Source: Gracilibacillus lacisalsi DSM 19029 (GTDB lineage Bacteria; Bacillota; Bacilli; Bacillales; Amphibacillaceae). Taken from it: a DNA stretch of 64,000 bases. This document shows positions 1 through 63,178 of this stretch, piece by piece. The stretch is from positions 62,001 to 126,000 of the forward strand of contig NZ_KB898669.1 in assembly GCF_000377765.1 (NCBI RefSeq). Direction: 5' to 3'. Each line of letters opens with the position of its first letter. The stretch's first letter is position 1. The position numbers were made by a program, and so were the translations under genes. The notes below the pieces were generated by a model that had not been told where the DNA came from, did no database searches, and was given only the letters and a program-made list of their open reading frames with translations.

Positions 1-527
1 TGTGCTAGTTGCAAACTATCTTGAAGATTTTCAGTCTGATAGGATACCTCTAACTCTCTGATAGAATCACGAACGGCATGATGATCTGTCTGGTTAGCAG
101 TAAGTATGACTGGATCTTTCTGAGCATGTATCACACTTACCTGATGCCCTGCCCCTAACTGATCGATTAATTCCTCTGCTTGCTCTTTTGCTTCCACTAA
201 CCTTGTTGTTCCATTTTGTTCTGTCATCATTGTCGCAGATGTATCAAAGACAATCACCAAATGATCACCACTTACCCTTTCACTTTCCAGATAAGGACGA
301 GTGAGCGCAAAAATAAGAAATAATAGAATCAGAAGTTGCAACAACAAGAGGATATTCTTCTGCAACTTGTGCCACCAATGATCTGATTCCCACTCCTGAA
401 AGGTTCGCTCCCAAAGATATATAGATGAGATAGTTTGTTGATCAAATTGCTTTTTAAAAAAATAAAATAAAAGTAAAATCGGAATAGCACTAAAAAACCA
501 GAAAGAAATTGGTGCTAAAAAACCCAT
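1..527 (-). CDS. BatA-like vWA membrane protein (3' end outside window)
   Basis: Partial: the start is inside the window and the C-terminal part runs off the left edge. The 175 visible codons begin with a short N-terminus, a membrane segment at about residues 5-24, a second at about 58-75, and a von Willebrand A domain whose MIDAS-like DTSAT begins at residue 95. This is the architecture of BatA N-terminal/vWA proteins. The ATG at 527 follows AGGAGGTGATGAG and lies 4 bases after the DUF58 stop, so the two are cotranscribed and probably coupled. In known Bat/MoxR operons such proteins act with a MoxR ATPase and a DUF58 protein in an envelope or stress role; the exact job here is unknown. Confidence 0.8.
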   Translation of the reverse strand, partial: MGFLAPISFWFFSAIPILLLFYFFKKQFDQQTISSIYLWERTFQEWESDHWWHKLQKNILLLLQLLILLFLIFALTRPYLESERVSGDHLVIVFDTSATMMTEQNGTTRLVEAKEQAEELIDQLGAGHQVSVIHAQKDPVILTANQTDHHAVRDSIRELEVSYQTENLQDSLQLA

Positions 528-57931: not shown

Positions 57932-60900
57932 TTATTGCTTAGTTCCTTCGACTCTGTACAAACTCCCTTTTTCCAATGTTTCTCCTGCAGCATTTTGCGA
58001 GTTTTCACCAACTATTTTTACATAGGCACGGTTTTCGTAAAAACCTGTTGAATTCGCTATATCCAGTAATTTTTGTGGCCAATCTCCTGCCCAACGGTAA
58101 CCATCTCTTCGTTCCTGTTCAATTTCTTGAATCGAATGCTTAATAACACCATCTCTTCCAGAGAAAATAGGACGATTTGTACCAATTTCATAGAAGCGGT
58201 ACCAAGTATTGGTTGTTGGATCATCGTAGAAATATTGGCCTTCAGGATCAGCTGATACGTATTTTACTCCTTCCACTTTAGCCTCTTCAAACCAGGTTAA
58301 AGCGCCATCAATTGCGGCCTGCACTTCTTTTGAACGGTTTGGCAAAGACATTAGATACTGCACAATTCCCACTGACTCTGAACCTGAAATAGATGGATGT
58401 TCATAGGAGCGAGCTTCCTTCGGTTCATACGTAAATGGATCATGTTGTGCGCACCATGCTGTTAATTCTCCGTCTACTGAAATTTGAGATTTCAAAATGT
58501 AATCTACGCCAAGAGTTAGAGACGCGTCTACCTGCTCTGCAAGCTCTTCCGTAACGATATCTGTATTAAATGGATATTTCTTTTCTGATACCATGGTTAA
58601 CACATTCATAACACGAATCATCGCATTATCGTTAAACGTTGCATAATCAGAATAGTTTCCCCTTGCAGGGTATACTTGTGGCCAGCCACCAGTTTCATAT
58701 TGAGCTTCAAGTAAATAATTAATACCTTTCAGAACAGATTCTTTATAGCGTGTCTCCCCAGTTTCGTTATACATAAGAGCTAAAAAGAGAATTTCGTTTG
58801 TTGTTGCATTATTATCTATAACACCTAGTTCCCCATGTTCAGGATGATACATATCTGATTTAGGTTCTTTACCATCCCACGGACGAGTATATTTATCTTC
58901 CATATTTTTATACCATCCGCCATGGTCCATTTGCCAAGATAATAGTGCATCAGCTTGTTCTATATCATTAGCTCTATCACCGGTATAATAAGGAGCATTT
59001 AAATATGGAATGTTATGTGGATCTTCATTTATTGGTTTATTTATCGTTCCATCCTCATTGAATGACTCCTTCGTTTCAATCACCGCTACTGTTTGTTTTT
59101 CTTTATTAACCCTTGTTGATATCTTTTCTACAGTTATGTTTGGCTGGAGATCAGGGTTAAGAGCTACCCAATCGTTCGTTGCTAACTGCAATTCAATATC
59201 ATTAACATCAAATTCTTTAAGCTTACTATTAAATGTGATTTCCACCGTATTCGAGCTTGTAACTTTACTTTGTAAGATTTTTATGGGGCCGTTCGGAACG
59301 GAACTTCCTTTTGGAACAAGCTTGAACGTTACAGGATCGGATTCATTTCCAGCAAGATCGACAGCCGAAATATTGACTTTATTTAATCCAGGTTCAAGAT
59401 CTATCTCTGAACTAAATGTAAAATCATCCGATAGCGTTACTTCCTCACCATTAATCTTTACACTTCCTGCTTCATTAAGCTTACCTGTAATAGGAAAAGG
59501 ATTATAGTTCACGTTATAGTGATTCCCTTTTTCTTCGCCTTCAATATCATCCACCGTTATAACAGGTTTCTCATGATCGTATTCTACTCTTAATATAGTT
59601 GGTACCGACTGGTTACCTTCTGAATCAACTGCCTCCAATGTAAACGTATTGAGTCCGGACTTTAGTTCAACGGTTTCCTGGAAACTAAAATCTTCGTCTA
59701 ACTCCATTTCTTTTTCATTTACATAAACAGTTGCTTCTTTGTCTACCTTACCTGAAATGGTAAAGCTTGATTCGTTTACAATTGCGTCTTGCTGATCAAG
59801 CGAAATCACCGGCGCGGATGCTGATATAGATGGGATAATTCCAATTCTAGTTGGATCCCAACCGTCTGATCCTTTCAACACATTTTGAACCGTGTATTGA
59901 TTCGCTTCTTCTGGTGTTAATTGCTTTGTCCAAGAATCACGCATTTTTGGATTTGCGCCTGGACCTGTACTATTGTATTCGGAATATTTTGCTGTTTCCT
60001 CGTTCGCCTGGTCGCCCCAGTTATCCCAACCATCAGGAGCAATCGAGTCATCGATTGCTGTATTGATAAAGGAAACCGCTGCATATGGACGCCATGGCCT
60101 ACCAAAGCGCACGTCCTCTATACCTTCATCTGAGGTAATTTGAGAATTTAGAAAGACATAGCCAAACCGATTCTCTTGTGGTGTACTTGCAGCCGTTACC
60201 ATACTTCCATCACGCTTACTGTGGATTTGACAATTATCAAAAACCGCTGTCGCACCACCAAAGATGAAATCCACATCACCTTCAATATAGCAGTCTTTAT
60301 AATACTGGCTTCCAGAATGGGTATACAAAGTATCCTGATAACCTAAAAACATGACGTTGTCAAAGTATGCACGATTGCCTGCAACATAAGCTGCTACTGC
60401 TTGTCCAGTGCCTTGACCTGAATCATTTTGAATCGTTAAATTTTTTGCAATAAAATCATCTGCATAGATGAACATGCTTGAACTCTTTGATGTACCTAAA
60501 GGATTACCATCAGGTCCAATTGTGTTGGCATTATCATCATACACAAGAACAGTACCTTCTTTACTTTCCCCAACAAAACTAAGGTTTGTTTTACTCTCAG
60601 GTACCGTCAGTTTCTCGCGATACTCGCCATCTTTGATATAGATAACATGTCGTTTAGAACTATTATCTGGTGCAGCATCAATTGCTGCTTGCACCGTTTC
60701 AAAGTCTCCTCCTTCTTTCGCTACAACTGTCACTTTTGCCGGAGTAACAGCTAACGGTTCAGAATCGAAGCTTTCACCATTCTCATTTACTGCTGAAACA
60801 ACATAATCATAGGTTTCACCATTTGTTAAGTCTGCGTCTTGATAACTTGTAAGCGGCACATCCGTAGCAATGACTTCATATTCACCACTATCAAACGAAC

Positions 60901-63178
60901 CACGTTTAATGTTATAAGTATCAGCTTCACTAACAGATGGCCAAGTTAAAACTACCTGCCCATCACCAGCAGTGGCTTCTAATCCTGTCGGAATCGCAGG
61001 TGCTCCATTTTTCGGCGCAGCAACCGCGCTTATAGGAGCAGAGTTAGCACTTTGGGATGTATCGCTCTCAGCGGACACAACATAATAATACCTCTCACCA
61101 TTTGTTAAGCCAGTATCCGTATATTCCGTTTCGGTTACTTCACTTTGAACAACTTCATAGCCTATTCCCTTTTCTTTACTACGAAGAACTTTGTACGAGA
61201 CTGCCCCTTCGACTGGTTCCCATCTGATTGTTATCTCTTCATTCCCATTACTGGCGGACAAGTTAGTTGGAACTTGTAATGGAGCTTCAGGTAAAGCACT
61301 TACTTCGTCTGAAGGATTACCTTCTCCACCAATGTTTTCCGCTGAGATAACATAATAATAACGTGTACCATTTTCTAGCTCTGTATCACGAAATGTCGTT
61401 TTCTCAACGTTTTCAGCGATTGTTTCATAAGGTCCTTCTTTCGTTGTGCTACGTTTAACATGATAGGTTTCTTTGTAACTGTACTCATCCTCGATACCGA
61501 GTGCCCATTTTACGGAGGCATCCATTAACTTCCAACCATCTTCCGTCATTACATCTTCTTGTCCTGCGAATAAAAATGTTGCTACTTGACGAGCAGGAAC
61601 TGGGTCACCATTAACATTTTTGGATCCTTTTTCATAAGCAAAAATGGTTGCTTTACTGTCATCATCTGCAGCCGTAGCAATGGTAATCGCCTCTTCACCA
61701 GGGGTACCAAAATTGATGTTTCCAGTCTCATTATAAACTTTAATCGTACCACTTAACTCTGCAGATAATGGGTGATTACTAGTATCAATCGTAATTGAAT
61801 CCTGATTCTCATAACTTCCAAATAAGCCAGAACCTGCTTCACTTAAATAAACATCATCCAGAGCATAAGGTTCAGCATATACGACCGGAACTGGTGAATC
61901 TATGAATTTTGTGCCGATGTAGGCAGAGCCAGAGGATTCACCAACAAACACTAAGTCATAGGAAAGTGCATCATCTCCAGAGACTTCATTGTCTTTGATA
62001 AATGATACGGCAAAACCAAGTGACTCTAAGTGATGAATTGTTTTTTCATCAGCAGGAACACCCGTCCCAACAAATAAGACCTGTTTTCTGTCGCCGGCAT
62101 TCCAACTTAAATCAACCTGACTATTCCTTTCAACAGCTGTCAAACCTGTCGGCGCTGCTGGGGGATCAGGAATTTCAATTGGTGTCACACTGACTGGTTC
62201 AGAATCTTCACTTTCACCTTCCACATTCACAGCAGAAATCACATAATAATATGTCGTATAATTCGTTAATCCGCTATCGATATAACTGGTTTCTGTTATA
62301 TCTGTTGCGACAACTTCATATGGCCCTCCGTCTTCAGTGCTTCGCTTTATTGTATAGGTTTCATTATAATCCTTATCATCCATACCTAACACCCACATAA
62401 CGGATTGATCAAGTAATTGCCAGCCTTCTTCCGTCATATATTCTTCTTGACCAGCGAATAAAAACGTGGCTACTTGGCGAGCAGGGACAGGATCTCCATT
62501 CACATTAGCTGCACCTTCTTCATAAGCAAAGATGGTTGCTTTGCTATCATCATCTGAAGCTGTAGCAATGGTGATTGCCTCTTCACCAGGAGTTCCATAA
62601 TTAATTTTTCCTGCTTGATCATACACTTTGACAGTACCACTTAACCCAGCAGCTAAAGGATGATCACTAGCTTGGATTTGAAGTGAGTCTTGATCTTCAT
62701 AGCTTCCAAATGATCCAGAAGAGGATTCAGACAAGTAAACATCATCAAGTGCAAATGGTTCTGCATAAACAATAGGGACGGAAGAATCGATAAACTTATT
62801 ACCTATATTAGATGAGTTCGATGATTCACCAACAAATACTAGATCATAGGAACCCGCATCTTCTCCACTTACTTCTTTATCCTCTATAAAAGTGATTGAG
62901 AATCCAAGTGATTCAAAATGATCCATTGTCATTTCATCTGCTAGATTCCCTGTACCCACATACAATATATGTTTTCCTACGCCAGGAATCCAACTTAACT
63001 CAACCTGTTGACTGTCATATGGTTCAGCCGTTAATGCGATTGGTTGAGAGGGTAGTTTTTCTGTAGTTGCTGTTACTGTTGAAAGAACATCATGCTGCAT
63101 AAATGAGAGCAATAAAATGAAACTTAATAATACCTTACATACGTTTTTCATGACTTTCCTCCTTGTAACATGCTTCAT
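57932..63178 (-). CDS. Secreted pectin methylesterase-pectate lyase with nested FnIII domains
   Basis: 1748 residues. Order: signal peptide 1-38; FnIII-1 (43-65, 272-333), split by an inserted module at 67-266; FnIII-2 (342-361, 568-630), split by a second copy at 365-562; FnIII-3 633-721; FnIII-4 727-813; CE8 pectinesterase 816-1110, with GEYREKL, QAVAAYV, GYQDTLY (Asp949), DFIFGG (Asp970), FGRPW (Arg1027); Ig-like modules about 1121-1200 and 1204-1289; a linker/beta domain to about 1370; family 10 pectate lyase about 1400-1735, with GGWYKNMEDKY, DNNATTNEI and NRPIFSGRDG. It would de-esterify pectin and cleave the polygalacturonate made. No LPxTG or SLH anchor seen. ATG preceded by AGGAGG. 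Confidence 0.92.
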   Translation of the reverse strand: MKHVTRRKVMKNVCKVLLSFILLLSFMQHDVLSTVTATTEKLPSQPIALTAEPYDSQQVELSWIPGVGKHILYVGTGNLADEMTMDHFESLGFSITFIEDKEVSGEDAGSYDLVFVGESSNSSNIGNKFIDSSVPIVYAEPFALDDVYLSESSSGSFGSYEDQDSLQIQASDHPLAAGLSGTVKVYDQAGKINYGTPGEEAITIATASDDDSKATIFAYEEGAANVNGDPVPARQVATFLFAGQEEYMTEEGWQLLDQSVMWVLGMDDKDYNETYTIKRSTEDGGPYEVVATDITETSYIDSGLTNYTTYYYVISAVNVEGESEDSEPVSVTPIEIPDPPAAPTGLTAVERNSQVDLSWNAGDRKQVLFVGTGVPADEKTIHHLESLGFAVSFIKDNEVSGDDALSYDLVFVGESSGSAYIGTKFIDSPVPVVYAEPYALDDVYLSEAGSGLFGSYENQDSITIDTSNHPLSAELSGTIKVYNETGNINFGTPGEEAITIATAADDDSKATIFAYEKGSKNVNGDPVPARQVATFLFAGQEDVMTEDGWKLMDASVKWALGIEDEYSYKETYHVKRSTTKEGPYETIAENVEKTTFRDTELENGTRYYYVISAENIGGEGNPSDEVSALPEAPLQVPTNLSASNGNEEITIRWEPVEGAVSYKVLRSKEKGIGYEVVQSEVTETEYTDTGLTNGERYYYVVSAESDTSQSANSAPISAVAAPKNGAPAIPTGLEATAGDGQVVLTWPSVSEADTYNIKRGSFDSGEYEVIATDVPLTSYQDADLTNGETYDYVVSAVNENGESFDSEPLAVTPAKVTVVAKEGGDFETVQAAIDAAPDNSSKRHVIYIKDGEYREKLTVPESKTNLSFVGESKEGTVLVYDDNANTIGPDGNPLGTSKSSSMFIYADDFIAKNLTIQNDSGQGTGQAVAAYVAGNRAYFDNVMFLGYQDTLYTHSGSQYYKDCYIEGDVDFIFGGATAVFDNCQIHSKRDGSMVTAASTPQENRFGYVFLNSQITSDEGIEDVRFGRPWRPYAAVSFINTAIDDSIAPDGWDNWGDQANEETAKYSEYNSTGPGANPKMRDSWTKQLTPEEANQYTVQNVLKGSDGWDPTRIGIIPSISASAPVISLDQQDAIVNESSFTISGKVDKEATVYVNEKEMELDEDFSFQETVELKSGLNTFTLEAVDSEGNQSVPTILRVEYDHEKPVITVDDIEGEEKGNHYNVNYNPFPITGKLNEAGSVKINGEEVTLSDDFTFSSEIDLEPGLNKVNISAVDLAGNESDPVTFKLVPKGSSVPNGPIKILQSKVTSSNTVEITFNSKLKEFDVNDIELQLATNDWVALNPDLQPNITVEKISTRVNKEKQTVAVIETKESFNEDGTINKPINEDPHNIPYLNAPYYTGDRANDIEQADALLSWQMDHGGWYKNMEDKYTRPWDGKEPKSDMYHPEHGELGVIDNNATTNEILFLALMYNETGETRYKESVLKGINYLLEAQYETGGWPQVYPARGNYSDYATFNDNAMIRVMNVLTMVSEKKYPFNTDIVTEELAEQVDASLTLGVDYILKSQISVDGELTAWCAQHDPFTYEPKEARSYEHPSISGSESVGIVQYLMSLPNRSKEVQAAIDGALTWFEEAKVEGVKYVSADPEGQYFYDDPTTNTWYRFYEIGTNRPIFSGRDGVIKHSIQEIEQERRDGYRWAGDWPQKLLDIANSTGFYENRAYVKIVGENSQNAAGETLEKGSLYRVEGTKQ

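Follow-up and report, generated by a model that had tools for sequence, protein, structure and literature searches.

In bacterial enzymes that degrade glycans, fibronectin type III (FnIII) domains are generally regarded as passive end-to-end linkers. An FnIII domain that holds an insert has been described in the insulin receptor: its second FnIII domain contains an insert domain that has been implicated in ligand binding, is described as presumably disordered, and carries the subunit cleavage site (PMC2577065). The stretch of DNA analyzed here (the window; 64,000 nucleotides of the genome of Gracilibacillus lacisalsi DSM 19029) contains a pectinase gene whose product resembles this receptor domain in having FnIII units that hold an insert. 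The product departs from the receptor in that its insert resembles a folded alpha/beta module, whose family also has free-standing members, and in being a bacterial pectinase. Neither the module nor its nesting in pectinase FnIII domains was found in the open-licence literature covered (titles and abstracts, and passages of PMC2577065 and PMC11525138). An FnIII domain with an insert is already known from the insulin receptor, and the domain family nested here is unnamed in Pfam and NCBIfam.

The pectinase gene is a single open frame encoding 1748 aa on the minus strand (57932-63178, and all features given below are on this strand), so that the limits of 58500-63060 proposed in the initial annotation were too narrow. 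The protein contains a CE8 pectinesterase domain (PF01095; aa 817-1103; 59870-60730; E 8.1e-71, 238.6 bits) and a PL10 pectate lyase domain (PF09492; aa 1416-1705; 58064-58933; E 3.8e-112, 374.8 bits), the latter also recognized by the NCBIfam model TIGR02474 (338.4 bits). All three matches are above their cut-offs, which agrees with the earlier view of the host as a glycan-active enzyme. Judging by the start of the protein, where a basic and then hydrophobic stretch reads as an N-terminal export signal (approximately aa 1-38; 63065-63178), the pectinase is probably secreted. Pfam detects four fn3 stretches. Two belong to uninterrupted domains, FnIII-3 (aa 637-718; 61025-61270) and FnIII-4 (about aa 727-810, bounds read from the sequence; 60749-61000), and two Ig-like/Glucodextran_B domains lie at about aa 1129-1280 (59339-59794; Pfam).

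The other two fn3 stretches correspond to split domains. FnIII-1 consists of an N-terminal part with strands A and B (aa 43-66; 62981-63052) and a C-terminal part with strands C to G (aa 267-335; 62174-62380), both delimited by the fn3 profile, the structural model and superposition, and between them lies module 1 (aa 67-266; 62381-62980), delimited by sequence comparison. FnIII-2 is similarly composed of an N-terminal part (aa 338-363; 62090-62167) and a C-terminal part (aa 564-632; 61283-61489), both assigned by the fn3 profile, which flank module 2 (aa 364-563; 61490-62089; sequence comparison and model). The two modules agree at 145 of 199 aligned positions (73% identity), and thus the description of them as near-identical was an overstatement.

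That each of two consecutive FnIII domains holds, within its B-C loop, a separate module of about 200 residues, as the initial annotation proposed, is upheld by the profile scores of both units and by the model of unit 1. On the split units, the Pfam fn3 profile (PF00041; curated cut-off of 25 bits) covered positions 29-83 and 17-82 of 84, with 26.7 and 25.3 bits, whereas after removal of the module it covered positions 2-83 and 2-82, with 37.6 and 35.3 bits, i.e., a near-full-length match above the cut-off for both joined domains of the window protein. In three shorter relatives (see below), the scores were lower: the joined FnIII of G015 and G003 scored 23.6 and 17.1 bits, both under the same cut-off, and that of G004, with its modules removed, gave no fn3 match at E <= 1. 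An AlphaFold2 model of unit 1 (FnIII-1 plus module 1), built from nine alignment rows, has a mean pLDDT of 64, with values mostly of 76-94 in the FnIII parts and below 50 in residues 99-202. Strand B comprises residues 16-22 and strand C residues 232-238 of this model, placing the insert in the B-C loop. VIA-align superposed unit 1 on the solved FnIII domains of 5g56 (Z 14.8, rmsd 1.8 A, 86 residues, model range 2..293) and 3mpc (Z 14.7, 2.3 A, 90 residues), and FnIII structures were also among its Foldseek matches. Since both halves are superposed at once, contributing to one beta-sandwich, the insert is predicted to separate strands B and C of an FnIII domain that still forms, intact, around the module.

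In the whole window protein, no Pfam or NCBIfam family covers either module, and none reached its curated cut-off in six proteins scanned separately (module 1, one G003 module, and four proteobacterial proteins), leaving the module without a name in these two libraries. A single-module sequence search of the solved structures gave no match.

Relatives of the module were found in Bacillota, in counts that include the genome of the window. A profile of the two window modules matched 11 of 150 genomes, and a 17-row module profile matched 10 of 159 genomes of the family, three of 398 of the class, and one of 398 of the phylum. Scanning named genomes with a sequence pattern yielded four loci, including an additional one in Metabacillus bambusae; the closest named relative there was G. 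suaedae, whose module is 95% identical. Combining the searches, there are 19 modules in 12 Bacillota proteins (window protein included), and every one of them is flanked by two FnIII parts, as read from the sequences. Five of these proteins have two split FnIII domains with one module each, four (G008, G011, G015 and G066) have one module, G003 and G004 carry two modules head to tail within a single FnIII, and in M. bambusae FnIII-1 is uninterrupted and FnIII-2 holds a module. Thus, the same loop contains zero, one or two modules, mostly one and twice two in tandem. This variable occupancy, together with the existence of free-standing distant relatives, makes the loop look like a socket for a part that probably binds a ligand.

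The module also keeps company with pectin degradation in these relatives: a PL10 domain shares the frame with it in all 10 module-bearing genomes of the family, and also in the Litchfieldia and Metabacillus proteins. The reverse does not hold: other PL10 enzymes in that bacterial family have the catalytic family in common with the window protein, but 18 of the 28 PL10 matches in 159 genomes lie outside module-bearing proteins.

The initial annotation also proposed that the whole FnIII-module unit had been copied in tandem, an explanation that would demand a later loss of module 1 in M. bambusae. Both inserts occupy the same loop position, and a branch of the FnIII tree sets FnIII-1 and FnIII-2 together, without strong support (78/89); both observations speak for such a duplication. 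However, divergence between the copies is greater in the FnIII parts than in the modules: the FnIII/module distance ratio between copies 1 and 2 is 2.41-3.21 (mean 2.77, four genomes), against 0.58-3.04 (mean 1.62) between orthologues, a range from 12 non-independent pairs that overlaps the former. This higher ratio favors either module-only copying into an existing FnIII or a later homogenization of the modules. Moreover, FnIII-1 of the window is 54% identical to the uninterrupted FnIII-4 and 50% to FnIII-2, and a clade of FnIII-1 with FnIII-4 is not rejected (p-AU 0.265). The two modules within one FnIII in G003 and G004 indicate that a module can double without its FnIII, and the FnIII-1 of M. 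bambusae, which shares 61% identity with its counterpart in the window and 42% with the window's FnIII-2, has no module at all. The module-1 copies make up a single clade of the module tree (100/99), both G004 modules group together (88/83), and the G003 modules lie inside a G003/G008/G011/G015 clade (100/99), where the tree does not show them to be sisters; the grouping of the G004 and G003 modules suggests, without proving it, that there was more than one module doubling. Duplication of the whole unit is thus doubtful, although the weak grouping of FnIII-1 with FnIII-2 speaks for it, and we consider it somewhat unlikely. Module-only copying appears, tentatively, to fit better.

The family extends beyond Bacillota. 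Module homologues were found in 12 of 72,556 plasmid records, all of them from Proteobacteria, with 27-32% identity in the best place; this search covered plasmids, and the spread observed in Proteobacteria is therefore a lower bound. A profile comparison places the Bacillota and proteobacterial modules in one family (99.9% probability, 197 columns), and two scans of viral contigs revealed no relative of the module. Four proteobacterial proteins inspected by eye are frames of about 240-260 residues that consist of a putative export signal and the module alone. In seven of the nine loci inspected (of the 12 records), a TonB-dependent receptor gene lies directly upstream on the same strand; several of these loci come from the same genus, and thus this neighborhood does not represent nine independent events. 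One of the seven has a FecR gene ahead: on a megaplasmid of Cupriavidus metallidurans (L005:2284-6567), the genes for FecR, the TonB-dependent receptor and the free-standing module stand in a row on one strand, an arrangement that suggests regulation by an iron-type signal. The two Polymorphobacter loci have a 2-hydroxycarboxylate transporter gene upstream and a cytochrome b561 gene downstream of the module gene, and their TonB-dependent receptor is farther away on the opposite strand.

Regarding its fold, the module looks flavodoxin-like and may belong to the ThuA/amidotransferase type. Modeled by itself, at low confidence (mean pLDDT 60.6, pTM 0.68), it gave 14 Foldseek matches at E <= 0.001, ranked first (E 7e-6 to 7e-4; TM by query 0.35-0.47; rmsd > 10 A), which are chorismate, anthranilate and GMP synthase and HisH chains, all of which we take to contain class I glutamine amidotransferase domains. 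With VIA-align, by contrast, the top-ranked structures were CheY-like receivers (Z 10-11, with 94-110 of the 200 residues aligned). No ThuA chain was named among the best 50 matches listed by either program, which excludes nothing. When the module family profile was compared with the solved structures, 26 chains appeared up to E 10 and one below 0.01; this LacI-type periplasmic-binding-like match over 70 positions (E 0.0024 for the whole, 0.084 for the stretch) was set aside as a shared Rossmann-type core.

Profile comparison against five families placed ThuA best, aligned over most of the module (163-166 columns), with a probability of 66.6% using a hand-picked 14 of the 29 ThuA sequences and 35.2% using all 29. 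The other families reached, with the 17-row alignment, 28.7% (response regulators, 77 columns), 4.3% (amidotransferases), 0.6% (DJ-1/PfpI) and 0.1% (DUF4350), the last two scoring within their own column shuffles and being discarded. ThuA scores beat all of their shuffles (6 in one comparison, 20 in the other), as did those of response regulators and amidotransferases, so that this behavior is not specific to ThuA. The ThuA probability was about 4-5% with the Bacillota rows alone and 22-43% with the proteobacterial rows. In addition, the same method finds little even between known families (1.0% for ThuA versus amidotransferases, 21.2% for ThuA versus DJ-1), and therefore it is weak evidence either way. 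The module and ThuA (PF06283) also have an H-P motif in common, but ThuA gave no Pfam match at E <= 10 in any of the six proteins scanned, nor in the whole window protein, and it is the proteobacterial rows that contribute most of the weak profile match. Any link to ThuA is no more than suggestive. The earlier idea of a ThuA/GATase-like domain stands insofar as ThuA is the best profile family and Foldseek ranks amidotransferase types first, and is weakened by the low TM values, the preference of VIA-align for receivers, and the fall in probability with Bacillota rows. Genuine ThuA domains are present, close to the N-terminus, in further long proteins of the genus that look exported (L051 G013:C6 and L076 G000:C1), where they lie outside FnIII and are followed, as judged by eye, by sugar-dehydrogenase-like and PKD-like parts.

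If this resemblance were functional, the module might be a ThuA/class I amidotransferase-like enzyme, acting for example on a sugar or a carboxylate, and would provide the pectinase with a third catalytic activity. In addition to the ThuA profile alignment and the amidotransferase-type Foldseek matches, the ThuA domains just mentioned and the near-invariant D, H, Y and R/K positions are consistent with an enzyme. In window numbering, D81, Y219 and W262 are present in 17 of 17 aligned modules from Bacillota and Proteobacteria, and D145 and H173 in 16. The defining residue of the class I glutamine amidotransferases (PF00117) is the Cys nucleophile of the catalytic triad, and cysteine is absent from all 17 aligned modules, making an amidotransferase mechanism unlikely. 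In general, moreover, repeated copying of a module within one protein is seen with binding parts more often than with enzymes, and the ThuA match itself is uncertain. On balance, an enzymatic role seems improbable.

We rather favor, at about an even chance, that the module is a non-catalytic ligand-binding domain, perhaps for pectin. A second CE8/PL10 pectinase is encoded in the same genome outside the window (L109, G000:C1:32000-40000), with the catalytic domains in the opposite order. It has N-terminal CBM6 and CBM35 matches and no module (read to residue 1604 of 1862). These CBM6/CBM35-type domains resemble the module in being accessory domains N-terminal to the same catalytic families, and differ in their family, in their location outside FnIII and in the reversed catalytic order; binding by the module is putative. 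The CBMs of this paralogue, the multiple module copies, the selection described below and the uptake-receptor neighborhood together point to ligand binding. The module would take the place of the CBM6/CBM35-type domains and, projecting on a loop from the FnIII stalk, could keep the substrate near the two catalytic domains, the geometry of the FnIII chain being kept despite the nested module. The bound substrate might be pectin/polygalacturonate or another carboxylated ligand, and the exported-looking single-domain form beside TonB-dependent receptors in Proteobacteria would fit ligand binding too. Against ligand binding, the near-invariant polar residues could also be explained by a catalytic or metal site. 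The well-known CBM folds are mostly beta-sandwiches, and the alpha/beta look of the modeled module sets it apart from them; in addition, no CBM model of Pfam matched the whole window protein or the six module proteins scanned. The low confidence of the module model also keeps any pocket out of view, and in the three shorter relatives the joined FnIII falls short of the fn3 cut-off or goes unmatched.

Alternatively, the module could act as a spacer or structural element, making the arm longer or stiffer or promoting self-association, with no specific binding of a ligand. Its location in the FnIII stalk and its varying number per loop are what would be expected of a spacer. Nevertheless, an insert in the B-C loop would hang sideways and should lengthen the stalk little. 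Furthermore, the dN/dS values of 0.06-0.15 in eight pairs (seven orthologous and one between the window copies) indicate purifying selection, as estimated by a simple counting method and with a dS of 1.75, near saturation, for the window copies. These low values, and the invariant polar residues common to the free-standing proteins of another phylum, argue for a specific function, and a purely structural role is accordingly given a low probability, similar to that of an enzyme.

Ligand binding can be carried further into a proposal for the whole family, which we offer as a rather unlikely possibility. The module would belong to an undescribed alpha/beta extracellular ligand-binding family, ThuA-like by descent and devoid of the amidotransferase cysteine. 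In Proteobacteria it would act on its own in the periplasm, as a partner of TonB-dependent receptors, and in Bacillota it would be plugged into pectinases. The FnIII B-C loop would be the socket that receives zero, one or two modules by module-only copying, and the ligand common to both forms would be a carboxylate, such as galacturonate polymers, citrate-type siderophores or hydroxycarboxylates.

Because the same FnIII loop naturally holds zero, one or two nested domains in these proteins, the question of whether such a loop can act as a port for functional domains becomes directly testable. The B-C loop is also a candidate site for engineering enzyme fusions, and an unnamed module family that spans two phyla is now open to ligand-binding tests.

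Two of the relatives have additional features at their ends. The M. bambusae pectinase (L035:4918-10164) carries about 240 additional N-terminal residues ahead of its empty FnIII-1, a region without any Pfam family at E <= 0.001. No match to the Gram-positive cell-wall anchor PF00746 is listed by Pfam for the window protein; the shorter module-bearing pectinase of G015 (L027:6957-10412) has one, with 21.2 bits against a cut-off of 20, and this enzyme may therefore be wall-bound.
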